Origin: Xanthostigma xanthostigma
Lineage: Eukaryota; Arthropoda; Insecta; Raphidioptera; Raphidiidae
Direction: 5' to 3'
Assembly: GCA_963575645.1 (NCBI GenBank)
Contig: OY754468.1
Coordinates: 48,619,665-48,683,664 of the forward strand
DNA: 64,000 nt
Positions within the stretch are counted from its first letter, which is position 1. Every line of letters starts with the position of its first letter. The translations under genes and the position numbers were made by a program. Under the pieces are notes generated by a model that saw nothing but the letters and a program-made list of their open reading frames with translations, was not told the DNA's origin and ran no database searches. Shown here one piece after another: positions 1 through 59,545 of this stretch.

Positions 1-2098
1 TTTAAAAAAAGGTCACACTAGTATATATATATATATATTTATGATACGAGTTATTATCAAAACTTACTACTTTCCGCTTCATTTATACGCTGTGAGCACG
101 AAGGAAAAACTTGTTTTAAATAAACAAATAAAATATCAAAATGAAATTTAATAAACTTAAACGTTAAATTTTAATTTAAAACGATTCGTGTCGACTAACG
201 CACACTACGATGTTTAATCAAAAACACAAACAAAAGAGCGTTTGTTCAGTGACGTAGTGCGGTTCGTCGTCCCCGCTCCCCCTCGCGTTGTTTCAATAGT
301 ACATACTATTACCGCAGTGGCATGAAAGTAGTACTTTATATTTCTGGAAGGTAAATATAGCTATTATGTACGAGTTGTGACATTATGTAAAAACAAGGAA
401 CAAGCGTCTGCGAAGTTTAATAGTCAAAAAAAGCCATGTAAAGGGTGGTATTAAGGGGTTGAAAAAAATTTTCGGGCATAAAAATACCGAAAAAATTCTT
501 CGAGTCGTTTCAAATTTGAAATTTAACACTTTAGGAATCATTAAAATGTACTGCTAAAATTTAAAAAAAATCGGCCCGACAGGACCGGACTTACAAATTT
601 TATGAAATACTAATATAGATTTACATACTGAAGGGTGTATATAATTTGGTACAAATGTTGAATTGATATGTAGTATTGAAATTAAGTAAAACAATGTTGT
701 TTTAAGGGGTTTATTAAGGGGTAATTTTTTTTATTTTGTCCAAAAACAAAGTTAAGTTCATATAACAGAGCCACACTGCCTATAAAAGCAAATACGCTAT
801 ATTGTGGGCAGGGTTTGGCACTGCGACCCGGAGTTTTTTTTTAACATTCTAATTAAAAAACAATATTTTTAGGTAATTTTCCAATAAATACTAAATAACG
901 ATTATTGTTATCCCACCCCTGCTTTAAGTAGCGAAGGTCTTGTATGACAAGCAGTGCCCTTAACTGTGTCAGTAAGTACTGCAGTGCGATGATACCATAT
1001 ACTAAGTACATTGTAGACTCACAACGTCAATGGAACGATAATTGACCGGTTGCAGATGAAACGATTCTGCTACCATCTATTTGTGAAAAACTAAACTTGT
1101 CAGAAAAAAGTTGTTGGCCTGCATTTGTTCAGAATGTCTCTGATTGATCGCCTACGAACAATAAAAATTCTGAGAAGAAAAGTTATTAAATATTTTTTAT
1201 CTTTTGTACAGTTAATGAGATATTAATTAATTAATTATTACCAATAAGCTAAGCGGAATACAATATTAATACAATACACCTAATTTCCCTTCGTTGACAG
1301 CGAAAAAAAAAACGTCACGGAAAATATTTACGGGGCTACCTGTTTCAAAATGTCGGCCATTAAAGTCAAAGCGCGTATTTAAGTTAGGCTGAGCTCACTC
1401 CAAAGACTTTATTTTAAAAAAATCAAAGCGCACCTCTCTCTCTTGCCCCTACAGTAATATACGAATACAAAACGTAACTCTCTCTCTTTCTATCATCACT
1501 AACTTATATCTCCCTCTCAACTTCCAATATACGAAACGTAACTCTCTCTCTTACTATCTTCACTAACTTATATCTCCCTCTCAACTACCGTTCGCCTCGA
1601 ACGATCACGCACCGTTCGCCTCGTCCGATGACGCACTTCCGTAAACGCTTTCGTCAGGCATTTACCAGCTTGTTACCAAGCGTGCCTAAAGAAGTATTAC
1701 TTCAAAAAGTCAGGTGTATATGTTGGTGAGAAAGACTAGGGCCACGCCTTTTTGACGTTGAATGAAGACTCTATAATTCCATATTCTCTTGTTACACCGA
1801 ATCCGCAAACAATGTTAGTTAAATAATACAGATGACAGACGCTGACGCTTTCCTTTAAAACCGGCCCCGTCCTTTGATACTGATTTCAAATGCTCACAAC
1901 ACAACGAAACGAACCGGGTAGGGGTACCGCGTCGACCACTTTTATGTTGGTATCACTGGACTGGACTGTGTTCTGACCACACACGTACACAATCACACAC
2001 ACATACAGGCGGATCGAAATTTATCCTACTCTTTCTCATCAACAGATTGCTTTATTTTTGGGCAGTAGATTGATACGTGAATGGATCAACTATCCTTA
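1..2098. other. No gene seen; AT-rich repeat background
   Basis: No ORF of note. It holds a short (TA)n run near 20-38 and a pyrimidine-rich internally duplicated block (1425-1706) listed separately. The remaining sequence is low-complexity and non-coding on both strands. I see no promoter or RNA gene. Confidence 0.5.
1425..1706 (+). repeat. CT-rich internally duplicated repeat with an inverted partner at 45.2 kb
   Basis: Two near-identical ~65-bp segments, each with CTCTCTCT followed by a stretch ending TATCTCCCTCTCAAC, lead into GTTCGCCTCG repeats and then CCTAAAGAAGT. The same order appears reverse-complemented at about 45198-45425. The shared end (AAGTAAAACTTCTTTAGGC) recurs in related forms near 30.2, 38.6 and 56.8 kb, so this is probably a dispersed MITE family rather than a local duplication. 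Confidence 0.55.
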
Positions 2099-2695
2099 TC
2101 TATACTAATATATAAAGCTGAAGAGTGTGTTTGTTTGTTTGTTTGTTTGAACGCGCAAATCTCAGGAACTGCTGGTTCAAATTGAAAAATTTTTTTTTTG
2201 TTGGATAGCTCATTTATCGAGGAAGGCTATAGGCTATATTATAATATCACGCTACGATCATTAGGAGCGGAGCATTAATGAAAAATGTTGCAAAATGTAT
2301 CTCAAAAATAAGCTTCTATTCAGGTGAAATGCACTAACTAAATATATTCGTTATAGCGTTGTGAGTAAACAACCCCGGCTGGCTCAATTGGTAGAGCATG
2401 CGACTGTCAATATCTGGGTTCGAGCCCCACGTTGGGCGAATATATTTTTATTTTTTTTTTATTTTCTACATTGCTACATTTAAATATACTTAATTTTCTT
2501 TAATTATTTAAAAAAAAATTATTAGTTAAAAAAGTATAAATACCTACTGCTTTTTATCGACAAAAACTAACTCCGATCATCATGAAATTTGGACATAACA
2601 TTCATCTCGGTAAACTAAGATGAATATGTGTACTCATGTTCCTCCCTTCCCCATTCGTTCTTTTACACCCGGGTGAAACCGGACGGGACCGCTAG
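2099..2695 (+). mobile_element. Non-autonomous Helitron-like element (LEP1-type), full length
   Basis: Starts TCTATACTAATATATAAAG with a GTTTGTTTGTTT run and ends with the GC-rich hairpin CACCCGGGTGAAACCGG followed by CTAGT, the usual Helitron 3' signature. No Rep/helicase ORF is present, so it cannot move by itself. It contains a tRNA-Lys-like segment in the middle. Copies or fragments of the same family lie near 22.9, 28.7, 38.7, 43.1, 46.8, 51.1 and 55.1 kb. The boundary at 2099 is chosen by alignment of the copies. Confidence 0.75.
2374..2439 (+). pseudogene. tRNA-Lys(CTT)-derived segment inside Helitron-like element
   Basis: Reads CCCGGCTGGCTCAATTGG, then GTAGAGCATGCGACTG, and ends GTTCGAGCCCCACGTTGG, close to insect tRNA-Lys(CTT) as remembered. 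The A box and B box (GGTTCGAGCC) are recognisable. The anticodon loop is CTGTCAA, so it would read GTC, the anticodon stem has mismatches, and about 8 nt before the T arm is missing. It is not a functional tRNA. The same segment sits at the same place in the other copies, so it was captured before the family amplified. Confidence 0.65.
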
Positions 2696-3019
2696 TATAA
2701 GAATATAGCGATTATATATAAATGCTAGTGGAAAAGAGTGCAAACATTTCGAGGTCAAATAATTTGAACGTATTGTTATTGAAAAAAAAGAAAAGAAAAA
2801 TATTCCTGTAAATAATAGTTACTTATTTTGAGTTCCTATTCTAGAACATATTGATATTAACTAGATAGAAATTTTTTTTCTGCGATTTATAATGTTTAAA
2901 TCACGAATAAGCCATTAAGAATTTAGTCTATACTTTCTTGCAAAAATGAATAAAATAATAAACCGTGATAAAAAGTATAAGTTATTTTAACAGAAAAAAT
3001 AACGTTATAACGCATATCT

Positions 3020-3330
3020 GTTCTGCGCATGTGTCGATTTTTCCCTAAAAACAATGAGGCTCTTCCTTTTGACATGACAAACGTTCTATTAAAATTTGGT
3101 TACGATCCGCTCAGCCATTTGACCTATATTGCGCTCAGACGAAAACATGGTTTGCACATACCGCTAAACTAGCGGTATGTGCTCTAATTTGAACTCGAGG
3201 GGGCCTTACAACGAAAATATTAAGTAAAATTCTGAAAAGTAGATTTTGATCTAAATTAGTAGCATTCGAACTCCCCATTTGTGGATTTGGAATGGTAAAA
3301 TATAATGTATATGAGTGCCAATCGATGTGT
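3020..3330 (+). repeat. Dispersed repeat with an embedded 13-bp-stem hairpin
   Basis: Matches 62270-62515 in the same orientation at several blocks (for example the ATCCGCTCAG segment followed by TTTGACCTA). At 3154-3182 the sequence GCACATACCGCTA pairs with TAGCGGTATGTGC across a 3-nt loop; the 62-kb copy lacks this hairpin. No coding potential is seen. Confidence 0.5.
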
Positions 3331-3459
3331 ATAAATAACAAAGATAAGTTCTTCCCATCGTTTTATTTTATTAGTGCAATTTCACTTACGGTACCAGTTG
3401 AATGAAAATCAACACGGTAAAAGCAAGAAATGGAAAAATAAGAAAAGCCGAGGTTAAAG

Positions 3460-3884
3460 CCGCTGCACACGAGGCTAGAAACGCTGCTAGGAGTTCAGCT
3501 AGCCGGTAGGCTGGGTACGAAGCTGGAAACGACGTCACTGCGGGCTGGCCTGCTAGCTCACAAGATAGGTTTTAAAATTTGATTTGCTGCTAGGCATGAG
3601 TAAGAACCAATTAGAAAGCAGTATCTTGTCACGTGGGCAGTTGAACAAACGCCCACAAACCAACATGGCTTCATTCTGCTTAGATTCAGACAACAGACAC
3701 GTTTTCCTCTTTGTTTATATTTGAACTGTCACTGCGCGCGCACCAGATTTATCCACAAAACATGCTTGAAAAATAGTCTCGTGTGAAGCGAGCACTTTAC
3801 AGCAATCAAGAAAACCAGCGCTAGAAAACTAGTAGGCAAATCTAGCAATGAATCTAGCAGCGTTTCTAGCCTCGTGTGCAGCGG
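3460..3884 (+). mobile_element. MITE with ~30-bp terminal inverted repeats (CCGCTGCACACGAGGCTAG family)
   Basis: Begins CCGCTGCACACGAGGCTAG and ends with its reverse complement CTAGCCTCGTGTGCAGCGG; the inverted repeats run about 30 bp. I could not find a clear target duplication, so the superfamily is open. Partial copies lie at 21838-22090 (reverse), 30528-30722 and 31877-32125, with terminal fragments near 22825 and 45134. No ORF. Confidence 0.65.
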
Positions 3885-4689
3885 ACTGCTGCACTGTGCG
3901 TAATTGGTGTAATAATTTTCAATATATATATTATATATATGTATTATATGTTTACATTACGACGGTTAGGAAATTGAATTTCACGGAGTGGAAAAGTAAA
4001 TCACATATCTTATTGAAAATGCATTGCAATATTCTATTATGAACTTTGAATGGCATCTCATATATATAATACAGCTGTATTTGCATATTACAAAAGCAAA
4101 TAATTGAAAATATATTCCATATCCAATCAATTTTATTAAAATGGCGTGCGATCAATTTCAATGGTAGCTTGTAATTTTTGAAGAGTAAAAACACTGATTA
4201 TTATCAAACACATAACTTATATATAAATAGTTGGCATGTTACCAATAATATCTATACGAGGAAAAGTTTGTATGTAAATTTGTAGTGGAAAATCTTAGTT
4301 GCTACTGAGCCGATTTGAACTCATTGTTATTACACAGGTTAAGTTATTAACACAGGCTAAGGAAAAATGAGAGTGTAAGAAGCAAGACTAAAGTGCATCT
4401 TGGCCCCACTAAAATCTACTCGAGTGAAGTCGGGACGGAAAGCTAGCAGTGTGTAATTAAAAAAGACGGACAAGTGCGAGTAGAACTCGCGTCCTGACGG
4501 TTCAGTACCGTTATTCCATAAAAATTAAATTTGTCATCTAATAATTCTGTATATACAATTAGAAATTTATGACTTTCGGATTCTTTTCTTTACTTGTGCT
4601 ATGCAACCTTCTTTCGGGCCAAACAAGATTCTAAGTTAACGGGAAAAATTAAAAGTTACTCAGTACTCAAAAAGAAAAAATAATCGAGT

Positions 4690-5210
4690 GATTTGCAATT
4701 CTAAAAATAAATATCCCTTTAAAAAAATTCGATTTTTGACGAAAAACGAAATCTGTCGGAACTTTTGCAAAATCATCATGCTTATAGAAAAAAATACGCT
4801 GATCCAATGAGCACAAACAAACGTCTGTATGTCTTTTGGTTTAGAAGCTATTTGCGTTTATAGTTTTCAGAAAATCATATAAAACCTTTGAAAGGCCGTA
4901 GTTTCCAAACTAAAAGAGATACAGACGTCTGCTTACGCTTATTGAAATCAGCGTAATTTTTTCTGTAAGCATTCTCAATTCCAAAAGTATATAAAAAAAT
5001 CGATTTTTGCAATTTTTTCAAGGCATATCCCTTTAAAAAAATGCGATTTTTGACGAAAATCGAAATCTGTCGGAACTTTTGCAAAATCATCATGCTTATA
5101 GAAAAAAATACGCTGAATCCAATGAGCACAAACAAACGTCTGTATGTCTTTTGGTTTAGAAGTTATTTGCGTTTATAGTTTTCAGAAAATTTGACGAAAA
5201 CCGAAATAAA
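4690..5210. repeat. Satellite-like array of alternating inverted half-units (copy 1)
   Basis: Blocks of about 150 bp alternate in orientation. Each carries the pattern of a GAGC..AAACAAACGTCTG stretch and a TTTTGGTTTAGAAG stretch, or its reverse complement, around TTTTTGACGAAAA. The same arrangement occurs at 58740-59545, and a degenerate form near 43660-43985 and 44600-44830. Because the unit is quasi-palindromic, similar short ORFs appear on both strands; I do not regard them as genes. Confidence 0.6.
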
Positions 5211-6277: not shown

Positions 6278-6532
6278 TAAAATGAATCCCAACGCGGTAC
6301 TACTATTGAAGAATTAGTTAACTCGCTAAAAGATGGCAGTAAAAAGCAAAAAAAAAACGTTTCCTCTGTTCCAACAAATTGATTTGCGGTTTCATGGATT
6401 ATGAAACTCGCGATTGTGAGACGTCCATTAAGCTAGCAGAACAAGGTCAGCAGAACAAAATATGACATAACTAATAATTAAGTGCTAATATAATGCTAAT
6501 TAAATGCCCCAATCAAAAATTTATTGCTCCGT

Positions 6533-8497
6533 TTTTTTTAAAAAATATCGCATGTTCTGCTAGCTTAAGATTAACTCAGCAGAGCAGATACTGATAAAAC
6601 CATTAAAAACAAATCTGACCGAATGAAAATCAAGTGAAAATTAAGTGCTAATTTAATGCTCTAATAAGAAATTTATTGCTCCGTTTTTTAAAAAAATATC
6701 ACATGTTCTGCTAGCTTAAGATGAACTCAGCAGAGCAGATACTGAAAAAACCATTAAAAACAAATCTGAACGAATGAAAATCAATTGAAAAATTAAGTGC
6801 TAATTTAATGCTCTAATCAGAAATTTATTGCTCCGTTTTTTAAAAAAATATCGCATGTTCTGCTAGCTTAAGATGAACTCAGCAGAGCAGATACTGAAAA
6901 AACCATTAAAAACAAATCTGAACGAATGAAAATCAATTGAAAAATTAAGTGCTAATTTAATGCTCTAATAAGAAATTTATTGCTCACTTTTTTTTAAATA
7001 TCACATGTCCTGCTAGCTTAAGATGAACTCAGCAGAGCAGATACTGAAAAAACCATTAAAAACAAATCTGACCGAATGAAAATCAATTGAAAAATTAAGT
7101 GCTAATTTAATGCTCTAATAAGAAATTTATTGCTCACTTTTTTTTAAATATCACATGTCCTGCTAGCTTAAGATGAACTCAGCAGAGCAGATACTGAAAA
7201 AACCATTAAAAACAAATCTGAACGAATGAAAATCAATTGAAAAATTAAGTGCTAATTTAATGCTCTAATCAGAAATTTATTGCTCCGTTTTTTATTTTTT
7301 AAAAATATCGCATGTTCTGCTAGCTTAAGATGAACTCAGCAGAGCAGATACTGATAAAACCATTAAAAACAAATCTGAACGAATGAAAATCAATTGAAAA
7401 ATTAAGTGCTAATTTAATGCTCTAATCAGAAATTTATTGCTCCGTTTTTTATTTTTTAAAAATATCGCATGTTCTGCTAGCTTAAGATGAACTCAGCAGA
7501 GCAGATACTGATAAAACCATTAAAAACAAATCTAAACGAATGAAAATCAATTGAAAAATTAAGTGCTAATTTAATGCTCTAATAAGAAATTTATTGCTCC
7601 GTTTTTTTTTTTAAATATCGCATGTTCTGCTAGCTTAAGATGAACTCAGCAGAGCAGATACTGAAAAAACCATTAAAAACAAATCTGAACAAATGAAAAT
7701 CAATTGAAAAATTAAGTGCTAATTTAATGCTCTAATCAATAATTTATTGCTCCGTTTTTTATTTTTTAAAAATATCGCATGTTCTGCTAGCTTAAGATGA
7801 ACTCAGCAGAGCAGATACTGATAAAACCATTAAAAACAAATCTGAACGAATGAAAATCAATTGAAAAATTAAGTGCTAATTTAATGCTCTAATCAGAAAT
7901 TTATTGCTCCGTTTTTTTTTTTTTAAATATCGCATGTTCTGCTAGCTTAAGATGAACTCAGCAGAGCAGATACTGATAAAACCATTAAAAACAAATCTGA
8001 CCGAATGAAAATCAAGTGAAAATTAAGTGCTAATTTAATGCTCTAATCAGAAATTTATTGCTCCGTTTTTTTTTTAAAAATATCGCATGTTCTGCTAGCT
8101 TAAGATGAACTCAGCAGAGCAGATACTGAAAAAACCATTAAAAACAAATCTGAACGAATGAAAATCAATTGAAAAATTAAGTACTAATTTAATGCTCTAA
8201 TCAGAAATTTATGCTCCGTTTTTTTTTTTTAAATATCGCATGTTCTGCTTGCTTAAGATGAACTCAGCAGAGCAGATACACTGATAAAACCATTAAAAAC
8301 AAATCTGACTGAATGAAAATCAAGTGAAAATTAAGTGCTAATTTAATGCTCTAATCAGAAATTTATTGCTCCGTTTTTTAAATATCACATGTCCTGCTAG
8401 CTTAAGATGAACTCAGCAGAGCAGATACTGAAAAAACCATTAAAAACAAATCTGAACGAATGAAAATCAATTGAAAAATTAAGTGCTAATTTAATGC
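6533..8497 (+). repeat. Left arm: 13 tandem units of ~149-158 bp
   Basis: The word ACTCAGCAGAGCAG recurs at 6574, 6725, 6876, 7026, 7176, 7334, 7491, 7644, 7801, 7955, 8109, 8262 and 8411. Length differences lie mainly in a poly-T/poly-A stretch before ATATCGCATGTTC. Each unit contains TCTGCT and AGCAGA in inverted orientation about 15 bp apart, so each can form a small hairpin. Confidence 0.9.
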
Positions 8498-8815
8498 TCC
8501 GAAAAAGGAGTGAAAACGTATAATTTGTATTTTTCGCGCCAATTTTCTGCTTCAGTCATACCTAGATGTCGCCGCACGATAGTTCCTGGACACATTGTTT
8601 CATTTATGCACTCATAAGGTGACATTTCGTCACCATCAGTGTCAGTTCAACAAAGAAAAAGCGCACCAGCCGTGTGTTATATTACACGAACCATTTGGAG
8701 CCACTTTTGACCTCTTAATAACTCAAAATCTATTTAACGTAAACACATGAAATTAGTGTATGTGCCATATATGGCAAATACACTAAAAATGAAAGAATAG
8801 TTACTTCTTACCACC
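8498..8815. other. Unique core of the foldback element, no ORF
   Basis: About 320 bp between the two arrays, unlike them and unlike anything else in the window. No reading frame of useful length exists on either strand. It contains the perfect palindrome CATATATG within GTGCCATATATGGCAAAT. It may be all that is left of an internal region, or a filler segment. Confidence 0.6.
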
Positions 8816-9990
8816 AGATTTGTTTTTAATGGTTTATCAGTAGTCTGCTCTGCTGAGTTCATCTGAAGCTAGCAGAACATGTGATATTTAAAAAAAAGTG
8901 AGCAATAAATTTCTGATTAGAGCATTAAATTAGCACTTAATTTTTCAATTGATTTTCATTCGTTCAGATTTGTTTTTAATGGTTTTATCAGTATCTGCTC
9001 TGCTGAGTTCATCTGAAGCTAGCAGAACATGTGATATTTAAAAAAAAGTGAGCAATAAATTTCTTATTAGAGCATTAAATTAGCACTTAATTTTCACTTG
9101 ATTTTCATTCGGTCAGATTTGTTTTTAATGGTTTTATCAGTGTATCTGCTCTGCTGAGTTCATCTTAAGCTAGCAGAACATGCGATATTTAAAAAAAAAA
9201 CGGAGCAATAAATTTCTGATTAGAGCATTAAATTAGCACTTAATTTTTCAATTGATTTTCATTCGTTCAGATTTGTTTTTAATGGTGTTTTCAGTATCTG
9301 CTCTGCTGAGTTCATCTTAAGCTAGCAGAACATGTGATATTTTTTAAAAAAACGGAGCAATAAATTTCTGATTAGAGCATTAAATTAGCACTTAATTTTC
9401 ACTTGATTTTCATTCGGTCAGATTTGTTTTTAATGGTTTTATCAGTATCTGCTCTGCTGAGTTAATCTTAAGCTAGCAGAACATGCGATATTTTTTTAAA
9501 AAACGCAGCAATAAATTTCTGATTAGAGCATTAAATTAGCACTTAATTTTCACTTGATTTTCATTCGGTCAGATTTGTTTTTAATGGTTTTATCAGTGTA
9601 TCTGCTCTGCTGAGTTCATCTTAAGCTAGCAGAACATGCGATATTTAAAAAAAAAACGGAGCAATAAATTTCTGATTAGAGCATTAAATTAGCACTTAAT
9701 TTTTCAATTGATTTTCATTCGTTCAGATTTGTTTTTAATGGTTTTTTCAGTATCTGCTCTGCTGAGTTCATCTTAAGCTAGCAGAACATGTGATATTTTT
9801 TTAAAAAACGGAGCAATAAATTTCTGATTAGAGCATTAAATTAGCACTTAATTTTCACTTGATTTTCATTCGGTCAGATTTGTTTTTAATGGTTTTATCA
9901 GTATCTGCTCTGCTGAGTTAATCTTAAGCTAGCAGAACATGCGATATTTTTTAAAAAAAACGGAGCAATAAATTTTTGATTGGGGCATTT
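8816..9990 (-). repeat. Right arm: 8 inverted tandem units of ~150-154 bp
   Basis: The reverse-oriented word TGCTGAGTT recurs at 8851, 9001, 9152, 9304, 9455, 9608, 9760 and 9911. The units are the reverse complement of the left-arm units and share their variants (GATATTTAAAAAAAA versus GATATTTTTTAAAA), which suggests exchange between the arms. Confidence 0.9.
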
Positions 9991-10095
9991 AATTAGCATT
10001 ATATTAGCACTTAATTATTAGTTATGTCATATTTTGTTCTGCTGACTTTGTTCTGCTAGCTTAATGGACGTGATTGTGAGATGGTGAAAAAAAAA

Positions 10096-24337: not shown

Positions 24338-24570
24338 TTGCGTTTTTAAAGCGAACTAAAAAGTATAAAATAATTTCTTTACAGACAGATTTTTAACTTG
24401 TAGGATTTGAAACGAAAAACGTGGCGCGAATTATTCGTTTTATCTCATTCATGGAGAGCTACTCTCTACACTTCTTATATAATTATCGCATGCGTTCCGC
24501 ATTTTTCGTTTAAATCTGTCAGTAAAGAAATTATTTTATACTTTTTAGTTCGCTTTAAAAACGCGGTATA
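24338..24570. repeat. Long inverted repeat next to the LINE 5' end
   Basis: GCGTTTTTAAAGCGAAC, TAAAAAGTATAAAATAATTT and CTTTACAGACAGATTT pair with the right arm ending GTTCGCTTTAAAAACGC; arms ~55 bp, loop ~110 nt containing a second short pairing (AACGAAAAACG / CGTTT region). The LINE begins about 20 bp to the right. Confidence 0.8.
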
Positions 24571-24590
24571 AACATTTTTTTAATTTCTCT

Positions 24591-27422
24591 TATTATGACG
24601 AGCTGATTTTGCTATTATCATCTTTTAACCATGCTTTTGATTTAATAGTTCTTACAGAATGCTGGTTGAACGATATTTATATACCGAAGCAAATAACGGG
24701 ATACAATAGTTTTAAAACTAGTCAACACCAACATCAAAACGATGGAGTAGTGATCTACATCAAAGCCTCACTATCAACAACAGTTACTGAAATATCAATA
24801 GTTGGTTCAAATGCATTACAGGTAATTATCAATGGGAATTTGGTTGTATTGTCCATCTATCGTTCTCCATCCGAACGCAATATCCTACCATTCCTTGACG
24901 ATCTACGACTAAATTTAGACAAAATACATAAATACGAGACAATAATAATAACTGGCGACTTCAATATCAACATATTATCAGCGTCTAATAGACATCCACA
25001 AGCAGACATGTATTTAGATCTATTTACAGAATACAATATTCGACCAGCAATTACCAAACCGACTCGAATTTTTAATGAAACCGAAAGTTGCATTGATCAC
25101 TTTATGATCAAAACGCGACTCGCAATAAATGCTGTAATATTTGAATCGACAATTACTGACCACTATTCTACGATACTAACCATTAACTACAACCTAAGAC
25201 ATAATGTGCCACAACCAAAAGCTATCAAATCCGTAACGAACTACGAAAATCTCTTAGAGTTTTTAAACCGGGAACCTTGGACTGAAACAATGACGACAAA
25301 TGACGTTAATGTAGCAGCCGAAAAATTCATACACACATTTCAAACACACATTAAAAACACCACAGAAACCCACACATTAAAACACAAACATCATTCACTA
25401 AAACCATGGATATCTGTTAATATACTAAAGTCTATACACAAAAGAAATAAACTGCACCAGAAGGTAAAAAAATTCCCCTTAAATATACAATTAAAAACAT
25501 ATTATCTACGATATAGAAATATATGCAACAGTATAATAAAAACAGCCAAAAATACATTTTATAAAACACGCATAGCACAACAAGCTCACAATACACAAAA
25601 AATATGGCAAACTATAAAAGAAATAACAAATACAAATAAAAATAAAACACAAAATACACATATCGTACATACAGACAACTCCATTATAAATACAGACACA
25701 GACCCAATGGCTGCTGCTAACGTATTTAACGACCATTTCTCCACCGTAGGAAATAGACTAGCAACACAACTAATAGAAAAACTACAGACGACCGAAGAAG
25801 ACTTAGCTGATATGACAATACCTTCCCGTAATTTACCTCATTCTCTATTTCTTACTCCTGTCACCAATAGGGAAATTGTCGAAATTATTAACGACTTAAA
25901 GACGAATAGTGCACCTGGACCAGACACGTTGCAACCTGACCTTTTTAAAAAAACCAAAAATTATATTGCCCAACCATTAGCTCACATAATAAATTTAAGT
26001 TTTGAAACTGGCGTAGTACCTGAACATTTTAAGGAATCCATAATATGTCCCATATTTAAATCTGGAGACAAGACCGACGTGACGAACTACAGACCAATCT
26101 CTCTTTTAAACACTACGTCTAAAATTTTAGAAAAAGCCATTAAAAAAAGACTTACACAATACTTAGACAAACATAATATATTATCATGTAATCAATTTGG
26201 ATTCAGACATGGAAAAGGGACTAACGACGCTATCGTAAGACTAACAACTGACATAGTAAGAGACGTTGACAAAAACTTGAAATCTTTGGCAATTTTCCTA
26301 GATCTGGCAAAGGCCTTCGATACGGTATCACACAAAATATTAATACAAAAACTGAATAACATAGGTATTCGAGGTGTGACTCTGGATTGGTTTAAGAGCT
26401 ATCTCTCGGGGAGAAGACAGGTCACATCTGTGAATAAAACAATGAGTAACTCACAAATCATTAAGTATGGAATCCCGCAGGGTACAGTACTCGGACCCAT
26501 CATGTTTCTGATTTATGTGAATGATTTATGCAATCTTAACATTGATGGTTCCATAACGTCCTTTGCAGATGATACTGCACTATATTTCACAGGTGTGACT
26601 TGGAATGAGACATACAACAAAGCTGAGAGTGGATTGGCAAAGGTGGCTAAATACTTAGATGACAATCTACTGACATTAAATACAACCAAAACAAAATACT
26701 TAACTTTCAGCCCGACAATCACCGGACAGCCGACTGACTTAACACTTCAATTACATCAATGCAAACAAAAAAAAACTAACTGTGACTGCACTATACTGAC
26801 CAGAGCCGACAATATCAAGTACTTAGGACTCACAATAGACAATAGATTAAAATGGGACACGCATATACATGATCTGACGAAAAAAATACGCAAACTAACT
26901 TATATATTTATACCGTTACGACACATATTGACAGCGACATTAATTAAAAATGTGTATTATGCTCTTTGCCAATCCTTACTCACATACGGTATTTCAGCAT
27001 GGGGTGGTGCTTATGGAAGTACCCTAGTACCGATAAAAAACGCTCAAAAACTGATCCTAAGAGTCATAACCAGGAAAAACCCTAGGTTTTCGACAACACA
27101 ATTGTTCAAAGAATTTAGAGTTCTAGACATCTCACAGCTATACATAAAATCCATATTAAACCTATATCATCGAACTCCATCTTTACAAAATCCATTATCC
27201 CATCCTCATGATACTAGATCTCAGATTCAAAACTATGAACAACTACCGAAAATGTCGAAGACCTTTGGCCAGAGACATATGATCTACCTAGCCCCAAAAA
27301 TATACAACCACATTCCCAGCGAAATTAGGTCTGTGAAGCATAACATAAAAAGGTTCAATAGGTGTTTGACCAAATGGCTAGTAACCGATGAAGCAAGGAG
27401 AGCCTACCATATTCTAATCTAA
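24591..27422 (+). CDS. LINE ORF2: AP endonuclease plus reverse transcriptase
   Basis: Nicks target DNA and copies the LINE RNA there. Counting from the TTG at 24609 as residue 1 (no ATG exists at this point; the frame stays open upstream): endonuclease residues ~1-195, with TECWL at 16-20 (catalytic E17), YRSPS 84-88, GDFNIN 116-121, SCIDH 160-164, TDHYS 183-187. Reverse transcriptase ~400-700: SAPGPDTL 434-441, NYRPISLL 493-500, FLDLAKAFDTV 563-573, GIPQGTVLGP 621-630, FADD 652-655 with the catalytic aspartates. A C-terminal region to 937 lacks an obvious RNase H. There is no internal stop or frameshift, so this is a young copy, but without its N terminus and ORF1 it is probably dead. Confidence 0.9.
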   Translation, partial: YYDELILLLSSFNHAFDLIVLTECWLNDIYIPKQITGYNSFKTSQHQHQNDGVVIYIKASLSTTVTEISIVGSNALQVIINGNLVVLSIYRSPSERNILPFLDDLRLNLDKIHKYETIIITGDFNINILSASNRHPQADMYLDLFTEYNIRPAITKPTRIFNETESCIDHFMIKTRLAINAVIFESTITDHYSTILTINYNLRHNVPQPKAIKSVTNYENLLEFLNREPWTETMTTNDVNVAAEKFIHTFQTHIKNTTETHTLKHKHHSLKPWISVNILKSIHKRNKLHQKVKKFPLNIQLKTYYLRYRNICNSIIKTAKNTFYKTRIAQQAHNTQKIWQTIKEITNTNKNKTQNTHIVHTDNSIINTDTDPMAAANVFNDHFSTVGNRLATQLIEKLQTTEEDLADMTIPSRNLPHSLFLTPVTNREIVEIINDLKTNSAPGPDTLQPDLFKKTKNYIAQPLAHIINLSFETGVVPEHFKESIICPIFKSGDKTDVTNYRPISLLNTTSKILEKAIKKRLTQYLDKHNILSCNQFGFRHGKGTNDAIVRLTTDIVRDVDKNLKSLAIFLDLAKAFDTVSHKILIQKLNNIGIRGVTLDWFKSYLSGRRQVTSVNKTMSNSQIIKYGIPQGTVLGPIMFLIYVNDLCNLNIDGSITSFADDTALYFTGVTWNETYNKAESGLAKVAKYLDDNLLTLNTTKTKYLTFSPTITGQPTDLTLQLHQCKQKKTNCDCTILTRADNIKYLGLTIDNRLKWDTHIHDLTKKIRKLTYIFIPLRHILTATLIKNVYYALCQSLLTYGISAWGGAYGSTLVPIKNAQKLILRVITRKNPRFSTTQLFKEFRVLDISQLYIKSILNLYHRTPSLQNPLSHPHDTRSQIQNYEQLPKMSKTFGQRHMIYLAPKIYNHIPSEIRSVKHNIKRFNRCLTKWLVTDEARRAYHILI

Positions 27423-30722: not shown

Positions 30723-30850
30723 TACTATAGCTATATATAGATAATGTCACCCTAAAAGCAGTGAAATCGTTTTCAAATCGGCTCAGTAGTTCTGAGGATT
30801 AGGTACCCGTCGCAAACAAACGTGCACTTTCCCCCTTTTTTTATTAATAT

Positions 30851-31230
30851 TTGTAACAATTATTATTATTTTATTCAACATATTTATTAACGTAAGTTTG
30901 TAACACGAATATTATTTAATTCAACATATTTATTAACGTAAGTTTGTAACATGAATATTATTTAATTCAACATATTTATTAACGTAAGTTTGTAACACGA
31001 ATATTATTTAATTCAACATATTTATTAACGTAAGTTTGTAACATGAATATTATTTAATTCAACATATTTATTAACGTAAGTTTGTAACATGAATATTATT
31101 TAATTCAACATATTTATTAACGTAAGTTTGTAACATGAATATTATTTAATTCAACATATTTATTAACGTAAGTTTGTAACATGAATATTATTTAATTCAA
31201 CACATTTATTAATTTAAGTTTTTTAACATG
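30851..31230 (+). repeat. Minisatellite, 46-bp unit, about 8 copies
   Basis: The word CGTAAGTTTGTAACA recurs at exact 46-bp steps (30891, 30937, 30983, 31029, 31075, 31121, 31167). The first copies alternate CACGAAT and CATGAAT, which points to a 92-bp doublet at the start of the expansion. The last copy is degenerate. Confidence 0.9.
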
Positions 31231-31876
31231 AACACACTTCCTGGTTCATACGCTCCGCTGCCATCTTGCCTCTGTTTCTCCACATCAGCACCAGAGTACA
31301 CCACTGGCGGCGTGGTTTTTTAAGACGTGGTGTTACATATTTTTATTGTCATTTGGCTTTTCTCAAGTTCTGTTATTCCTTGTTATTTGGTTAAGATTTA
31401 AAATATATATAGTAATTTTAATTCTCTTATAATTACTACGAACTAAGAAAGAAAGCATAATTACTTATCGGGTATTGTATAATTTTGTTAAAATCGGCTT
31501 AAGTTTTTGACTGTAACGAAATACTTAAAAAAAGTTTCAACTGACACAAAAACCATTAATAAGTTCTGAAACAATGACACAGAAAATAATAAAGTATCTT
31601 AAAATAAAGTTTCATTTTGAGTTAAACGAAAGTCACGTAAGTCTTGATTCAGAAACGTTTTTTTTTCATAAATTGTAAGAACAAAAAATATTAGTTATGA
31701 ATGACAAAGAACGTGAAATCCGCTTTAAAGTTTAATATTATATGACAACTTTGTATCATAAAATGAGGTGGTTTTTAACTTAAGAAAATGACGATTCTCA
31801 AGAAATTGAGGTACGCGTTTAAAATAGGATTGGCACGATCAAGGTTAAAGCAAAGACTTATAGATATATTCCACAA
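31231..31876. other. No gene seen
   Basis: AT-rich. A short GC-richer patch (31230-31330) starts with CACTTCCTGG; no frame, RNA gene or terminal repeat recognised. Confidence 0.4.
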
Positions 31877-55660: not shown

Positions 55661-56558
55661 TATTATTATTATTATTATGATTATTGTAACAAAACTGTTC
55701 TAGTTCGTGGTTGAAACTATTTATTTACAATAATAAACGTTTAACAAAACAGTTAAACACACAAACGAAAGTACTTCTTTAACGTAACAGAAACAAAACG
55801 ACAGTTCTAACTAATAAAATACGAGAATTGTGAACTGTCTGTATACTCTCAAATCGGGACGAAGTTAAAATCGAGGTTAATGAATACGATTAATTTTAAT
55901 TAAAAATTATTTAAGTTACTTTGCTTCAATATTTCACCGCAATATTTACTTAGCTGCAACTTTTCCAAGTCAAATAGATATTGTTGACCAAAGAAGTCAG
56001 TATCAGTATCGTACGGTGTTTGTATTTGAAAATACCGTCACAATATTATAAATAAAAAAAAAAGCTTATTGAAAGTTTTACTTTTTCATTTCAGATTCTA
56101 TTGGCGCGTTAAAAGTCAATTTTTTCATCTACAGTTATATGAGTCTTTAAGTATACTTAAATATTCGGTACACAAAGGAGTACGTTTCAAATATATAAGA
56201 AAAGTTATATCGCTATTTGTTGTTCGTCGAAAAAAGAGGGATATATTTTATAATGAAACTTCAAAGAAAATTTTCTCTTAATAAATTAAATTTAATTAGT
56301 TAAATTATAAACATCTTCGTCACATAATAATTATAACCAGAGTGCCCGTCGGCAAAAATTTTACTGACTCATACTCTCCCCAAATTTTGTATATGGCTTC
56401 ATTAGGCCTAGTCTGACACATATTTCCTCTATGACTTTTCTTGATTTTGGGGCGTTTTCCTTCTAAATTTTCCGAAAGATGTCGTTTCGACGACATGTAA
56501 AAATTTATAGATACTGTTTGTTTTTTTAATTGGATAGCTCAAAAACTTCAACCAAAAC
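55661..56558. other. No gene seen
   Basis: After a short (ATT)n run, AT-rich sequence. A plus-strand frame at 56069-56281 has a basic, aromatic composition typical of random AT-rich DNA. Confidence 0.35.
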
Positions 56559-56677
56559 GCTAAAATAATGTTCTCTGAACCATTTAAAACGTCTGACACC
56601 TCGAATATGTTCGACATATTCGTGGTGTCAGACATTTTAAATGGTTCATGTTATTTGTCAGAGAACATTATTTTAGC
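56559..56677. repeat. Long hairpin (119 bp)
   Basis: GCTAAAATAATGTTCTCTGA and ACCATTTAAAACGTCTGACA pair with TGTCAGACATTTTAAATGGT and TCAGAGAACATTATTTTAGC; the inner part includes CGAATATG..CATATTCG. A 12-nt bulge (TCATGTTATTTG) lies on the right. Confidence 0.85.
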
Positions 56678-58739: not shown

Positions 58740-59545
58740 CTGTTGCTCGAAAATACGACCTTTCGAAAATTTTATATGATTTTCTAACAACAATGTACGC
58801 AAACAACTTCTAAACCAAAAGACATACAGATGTTTGTTTGTGCTCATTGCATTCAGCGTGTTTTTTTCTATAAGTATGATGATTTTTCCAAAGTTCCGAC
58901 AGATTTCGTTTTTCGTCAAAAATCGCATTTGTTTAAAGGGGTATGCTTTGAAATAATCGCAAAAATATAATTCTTTAATAAACTTTTGAAATTGAGAATG
59001 TTTACAGAAAAAATACGCTGAATTCAATGAGCGTAAGCAAGCGTCTGCATCTCTTTTAGTTTGGAAACTACGGCCATTCGAAGGTTTTATATGATGTTCT
59101 GAAAACTATAAACGCACATAACTTCTAAACCAAAAGACATACAGACGTTTGTTTGTGCTCATCGGATTTAGCGTGTTTTTTTCTATAAACATGCTGATTT
59201 TGCAAAAGTTCCGAAAGATTTCGGTTTTCATCAAAATTCGCATTTTTTTAAAGGGGTATTGCCTTGAAAAAATTGCAAAAAACGAATTTCTTAACATACT
59301 TTTGAAAATGAGAATGCTTACAGAAAAAAATACGCTGAATTCAATGAGCGTAAGCAAACGTCTGCATCTCTTTTAGTTTGGAAACTACGGCCATTCGAAG
59401 GTTTTATATGATTTTCTGAAAACTATAAACGCACATAACTTCTAAATCAAAAGACATACAGACGTTTGTTTGTGCTCATTGGATTCAGCGTGTTTTTTTC
59501 TATAAACATGCTGATTTTGCAAAAGTTCCGGCAGATTTCGTTAAA
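58740..59545. repeat. Satellite-like array of alternating inverted half-units (copy 2)
   Basis: About five half-units of ~150 bp with alternating orientation: CATACAGACGTTTGTTTG blocks alternate with GCAAACGTCTGCATCTC blocks, separated by GGTTTTATATGATTTTCTG and TTTTTAAAGGGGTAT. Longer and cleaner than 4690-5210. The three ORFs here on both strands are shadows of the symmetry. Confidence 0.65.

Follow-up and report, generated by a model that had tools for sequence, protein, structure and literature searches.

A recently mobile family of foldback-type DNA transposons in the genome of Xanthostigma xanthostigma

The stretch of DNA analysed here, referred to as the window, comprises 64,000 bp of the Xanthostigma xanthostigma genome (C5:48619665-48683664). 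It carries a foldback element of 3651 bp at positions 6421-10071, in which two long inverted arms built of tandem repeats enclose a non-repeated core (Table 1). Elsewhere, the window includes an open frame of 957 aa at 24549-27422 with endonuclease and reverse transcriptase domains, which is LINE-like, and two tandem arrays, located at 30850-31232 (8.3 copies of 46 bp) and 58749-59540 (2.5 copies of 317 bp).

Table 1. Parts of the foldback element and its target-site duplications, in window coordinates
Feature	Position	Strand	Remark
Left 9-bp target-site duplication, GATTGTGAG	6412..6420	+	9/9 match with right copy
Left 24-bp terminus, ACGTCCATTAAGCTAGCAGAACAA	6421..6444	+	35 exact genome matches
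Left-arm diverged terminal unit	6421..6551	+	
Two AGCAGARCA motifs (putative transposase-binding site) in direct orientation, spaced 14 bp	6435..6457	+	Element positions 15 and 29
Left arm, 13 tandem units of ~152 bp, spacings 149-157	6552..8499	+	Exact inverted motif pair in 10/13
Non-repeated core between the arms, 316 bp	8500..8815	+	Full-length match in nine copies including the window's
Part of another repeat, dispersed and abundant, inside the core	8644..8754	.	
Right arm, ~8 tandem units in opposite orientation	8815..9998	-	8 exact inverted motif pairs
Right 24-bp terminus	10048..10071	-	Exact inverse of left
Right 9-bp target-site duplication	10072..10080	+	9/9 match with left copy

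A first-pass annotation of the sequence had recognised an inverted repeat of 3.65 kb with exact ends and a perfect 9-bp duplication, and both are indeed present, with GATTGTGAG on either side. The same annotation described the arms as made wholly of units of about 152 bp. The tandem arrays are real, but each arm ends on the outside in a diverged terminal unit of ~131 bp, so that "wholly" was slightly too strong. The arms are unequal in length, with 13.1 copies detected by a tandem-repeat scan at 6494-8499 on the left and 7.8 copies at 8815-9998 on the right. Their outer 474 bp are 99% complementary, and the perfect inverted repeat of the element measures 24 bp. No frame of 150 aa or longer is found within the element. 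The possibility that the core is a captured host gene was considered and dropped, part of the core being another dispersed repeat. When a single unit of ~152 bp was folded as single-stranded DNA, its structure did not exceed that of shuffled sequences (z -0.38).

The short motif AGCAGARCA occurs 23 times in forward and 20 times in reverse orientation within the element and not once in the remaining 60,331 bp of the window (0.2 expected under a Markov model). At both ends of the element it forms direct pairs, and 18 of the 21 internal units carry it as an inverted pair. The tip ACGTCC is distributed in another way: in all ten sequences examined it is present once per outer end and nowhere else. 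Cutting the units of loci L001-L048 by a fixed motif yielded 106 distinct units with a consensus of 152 bp and lengths of 145-158 bp, and the unit length is thus not strictly held in the main family.

The first-pass annotation had proposed a genome search for the 24-bp terminus, and this search, carried out over 623 Mb, brought out a family. At up to three mismatches, 45 matches to the terminus were found, 35 of them exact, as compared with a single match for the reversed control, which places the family far beyond chance. Seventeen paired copies, with both ends inverted and at most one mismatch, range in length from 306 to 5028 bp. Perfect 9-bp duplications flank 16 of these 17, and the 16 9-mers are all different from each other; the exception has a duplication matching at 5/9 positions. 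This tally was built up from 14 copies (13 perfect, one 5/9), to which the C10 copy and two C11 copies, all perfect, were added. When the flanks of 13 copies were cross-paired, none of the 156 combinations gave a duplication match. An older related subfamily with the terminus ACGTCCATGAAGCTAGCAGAGCAA is represented by two paired copies, whose flanking 9-mers match at 5/9 and 6/9 positions. Left and right arm ends, compared in 14 copies, are as alike between copies (mean 0.955) as within a copy (mean 0.957), and there is accordingly no sign of within-copy homogenisation of the arms. Both features of the foldback class were thus found, namely precise ends with target-site duplications and long inverted repeats of tandem units in variable number.

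Empty sites, which the first-pass annotation had proposed to check, provide additional evidence of insertion for other copies than the window's. For 14 of the 17 insertions, the joined flanks with one 9-mer were compared with the window and the collected loci, and clear paralogous empty sites containing the target 9-mer once were found for six of them: C2:16221729, C2:44712123, C2:60000495, C5:37006019, C10:35919346, and C8:35400315. Each of the six has at least one empty paralogue with a gap-free junction, in which five insertions show an exact 9-mer. For the C10 insertion, whose empty paralogue is located in the window itself at 56360-56636, the 9-mer matches at 8/9 positions. The empty paralogue of C8:35400315 shows 93.7% identity across 95 nt, 23 of which lie to the left of the junction; in a separate genome comparison of the flanks of this copy, no match appeared among the 40 scored of 1835 candidates. 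The C5:37006019 copy is inserted in a tandem array of ~640-bp monomers, and when its two flanks are joined through a single 9-mer, five neighbouring monomers are identical to them across 139 nt (100%), while 35 monomers in an array on C1 match at 99%. For C2:64669161, weak gapped empty paralogues only (68-70%) were obtained, and for seven of the 14 insertions, the window's own included, no empty paralogue was found in the window and the collected loci. Two observations concern the target loci themselves. The ~640-bp monomers on C5 (37.01-37.03 Mb) and C1 (69.36-69.39 Mb) are 99% alike over 139 nt, and the minimal 306-bp copy at C10:35919346-35919651 sits within a palindromic target, CGAATATG..CATATTCG.

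Two copies on different chromosomes, C3:41560228 and C8:35400315, are identical at 2424 of 2425 positions without a gap. Their left flanks are unrelated (27 of 100 positions agree) and their duplications differ. This near-identity implies that the family has moved recently, an entire 2.4-kb copy, arrays included, having been transposed. The element in the window is therefore one copy of a real, recently mobile family of foldback-type DNA transposons.

A second family of the same design was revealed by a genome search with the motif pair at up to one mismatch, which gave 75 matches against five for the reversed control. The matches included the known copies and ten further inverted end pairs, 0.28-8.2 kb apart. 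The sister copy at C8:27514557-27522811, read at both ends, starts with ATGTCCGTAAAGTTAGCAGAGCA and is bordered by a perfect 9-bp duplication, ATATATATT, which is of low complexity. Tandem units of 152 bp were found in the middle pieces of two other sister copies, and in the genome search matches to the sister unit were present in all ten end pairs. In the copy at C11:9185564, a ~5.6-kb interior is free of array matches; 350 bases of it were read, in which a frame resembles by eye the endonuclease of a non-LTR (LINE-like) retrotransposon, and no match of these bases to the window or the collected loci was found. The consensus of the sister unit, obtained from three units of 152 bp, has 91 of its 152 positions in common with the main consensus and is 40% different from it. 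Agreement is 24 of 26 at terminus-like positions and 67 of 126 at the rest (Fisher p=1.2e-4, for terminus-like regions picked after the alignment was seen). The two families share a terminus core, and the units of both carry the inverted subterminal motif pair.

A larger copy encoding a Mutator/Phantom transposase had been anticipated by the first-pass annotation and was searched for as it proposed. None was found among the 29 paired copies (17 main, two older, and ten sister copies, most sister interiors being unread): the MULE domain PF10551 has 68 genome matches at E<=10, none of which lies inside a paired copy, in a search that a diverged or intron-split gene could escape. No larger coding copy with the same ends was obtained with the 24-mer at up to three mismatches, with the 20-mer at up to two, or with the ends of the older copies as DNA queries; the 20-mer terminus gave 47 matches (control 3). 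In loci L069-L075, which comprise the two paired older copies and five single-end loci, frames of at least 80 aa were inspected by eye and no MULE was seen; two frames of L074 were recognised by eye as mariner-like and GIY-YIG-like, respectively.

MULE genes do exist elsewhere in the genome. Four such loci, L076-L079, were considered as autonomous partners and rejected, their ends being other than those of the family or not recognisable. They have some features of their own. In L076 (C3:12628800-12635200), a 422-aa MULE frame is enclosed by short CGACAAAATCTCCCC-type repeat arrays in inverted orientation (positions 1799-4826), and the whole may be a distinct foldback-like element that encodes a transposase of its own and has an 8-bp duplication. 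A 431-aa MULE-domain frame in L079 (2290-3582) has, in addition, a CG-1 domain match above the cut-off (E 2.2e-6), a pairing that seems unusual. Furthermore, 31 of 53 MULE-domain matches are crowded into ~7.5 Mb of one contig (C10:8.8-16.3 Mb), many of them in long open frames.

The suggestion that the element is like Drosophila FB and belongs to the Mutator-like group has consequently to be divided. Foldback architecture and transposition are borne out, and membership of Mutator/Phantom is not, with 0 of 68 MULE matches in the copies. The 9-bp duplication of the main copies and of one sister copy falls within the 8-11 bp range of the Mutator-like superfamily (PMC6446971), and the Mutator-like assignment is drawn from this length only. 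The first three bases of the ends are conserved G/C in most arthropod MULEs, a tendency and not a rule (PMC13359780), and the tips of the present families depart from it, beginning with ACG in the main family and ATG in the sister family.

The preferred reading is that of a non-autonomous foldback-type DNA transposon family that moves by cut-and-paste with a transposase supplied from elsewhere, and we give it a probability of roughly 0.8. The copies have exact ends, their insertion duplicates 9 bp, and six insertions have paralogous empty sites. As to how the copies are moved, we infer that a transposase supplied in trans would bind AGCAGARCA as its putative site and cut at the ACGTCC tips, leading to staggered insertion over 9 bp. 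The arms would act as arrays of transposase-binding sites, and their length would shift through unequal exchange among units. The enzyme would be Mutator-like, judging only from the duplication.

Several other explanations were weighed. That no transposon is involved at all, and that the locus is a palindromic segmental inverted duplication or a satellite array, is hardly credible: the arms are satellite-like arrays, as this explanation would have it, but the same ends are found with different 9-bp duplications in 16 of 17 copies and empty sites exist for six of the 14 insertions. Mobilisation by a retroelement residing in one sister copy is very improbable. An open frame in the middle of C8:27514557-27522811 matches RVT_1 weakly, at 28.1 bits against a cut-off of 29.6, a frame with a weak GIY-YIG match (15 bits, cut-off 22.6) adjoins an older main-family end at C7, and the two loci share 115 bp that are 98% alike, all of which might speak for such a mobiliser. 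However, members of this retroelement family are numerous in the genome (1174 candidates at first look, of which 121 were scored), the frame was seen in one paired copy, none of the matches listed falls in another sister interval, and the ends with a 9-bp duplication are typical of a DNA transposon. The retroelement, which is Penelope-type in our own reading and not by a database name, was therefore rejected as mobiliser and is, on account of its abundance in the genome, most likely a nested insertion. Copies of it also occur in tandem ~3.04 kb apart and as inverted pairs at C3:18458578-18468379 and C4:52663927-52667904, several of them near-identical and with long open frames. Finally, the mobiliser could be a non-Mutator transposase, as in Galileo, which has foldback ends and belongs to the P superfamily. 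Target duplications of the P superfamily measure 7-8 bp, and 16 of 17 copies here have 9 bp instead of the 7-8 bp of the P superfamily and Galileo. We regard this explanation as unlikely, even with all 29 paired copies devoid of MULE matches and with foldback shapes known to arise with different transposase classes (PMC3169594), as the constant 9-bp duplication is of a size commonly made by MULE transposases (PMC3169594).

The role of the arrays within the preferred reading of a trans-mobilised transposon is less clear-cut. The 306-bp copy, which is almost array-free, carries a perfect duplication, which suggests that an element can move without arrays and that these would at most enhance movement. 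The array might then be a passenger with no role in transposition, having expanded in tandem, been passed on along with the ends, and been tolerated. This is a serious contender, somewhat short of an even chance: one copy moved almost without an array, copy sizes vary from 306 to 5028 bp and unit lengths from 145 to 158 bp, and tandem repeats expand unaided. It has to be set against the retention of the ~152-bp unit and the motif pair in two families that agree at 91 of 152 positions (the sister consensus being of three units), and against the concentration of this agreement at terminus-like positions. More tentatively, and with some doubt on our part, selection may maintain both the periodicity of ~152 bp and the inverted pairing of the motif, the arms being enhancer arrays of putative transposase-binding sites, apart from the cut tips and possibly chromatin-phased, in a design that outlasted the split into two families. 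The motif may also persist in the units merely through the common origin of units and ends. The copies of this recently mobile family differ naturally in size, forming a series that extends from 306 bp to 5 kb, and the function of the arms will become directly testable once the transposase is found.

Among the known systems, Drosophila FB/NOF has the same foldback shape and 9-bp duplication as the present family, and its repeat units are much shorter than ~152 bp. Galileo has a target duplication of 7 bp, as against 9 bp here. Like the present family, Galileo possesses long inverted repeats with internal tandem repeats, and it differs in having a P-type transposase with a THAP domain (PMC3688188). 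Binding sites of its transposase domain have been shown within two of its tandem repeats, and, according to the same report, those of Foldback and Phantom are untested (PMC3688188). The closest in design, likened by description and not by sequence, is Tetris, a foldback of Drosophila virilis (PMC4079207). Tetris shares with the family described here long inverted repeats with internal tandem units and the want of an autonomous partner, being apparently non-autonomous, with no autonomous copies found (PMC4079207). Its internal tandem units of ~220 bp have a 37-bp stretch in common with the outer domain, and its duplications are 8-10 bp long (PMC4079207). In contrast, the unit of the present family is ~152 bp, 18 of 21 units contain the inverted motif pair, and a sister family has the same unit length.

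Tm1, a Mutator/Foldback family of the root-knot nematodes Meloidogyne, resembles the present family in that its inverted repeats are composite and vary in length, its target duplications measure 9 bp, and some of its members are MITE-like (PMC3169594). The commonest length of its repeat motif is 14 bp, and a Phantom-like transposase is encoded by one member; moreover, Tm1 was judged currently inactive by its authors (PMC3169594), whereas two copies of the present family are identical at all but one of 2425 positions. With Tm1 published, and FARE of Arabidopsis also named in its discussion (PMC3169594), FB-like elements outside flies have already been described. Only this family may be undescribed, and no published account of it was found in searches of the literature. 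The element is thus of a known kind and represents a new, recently mobile family of foldback-type DNA transposons, useful for a repeated candidate binding motif from which the cut tips are separable and for its diverged sister family.
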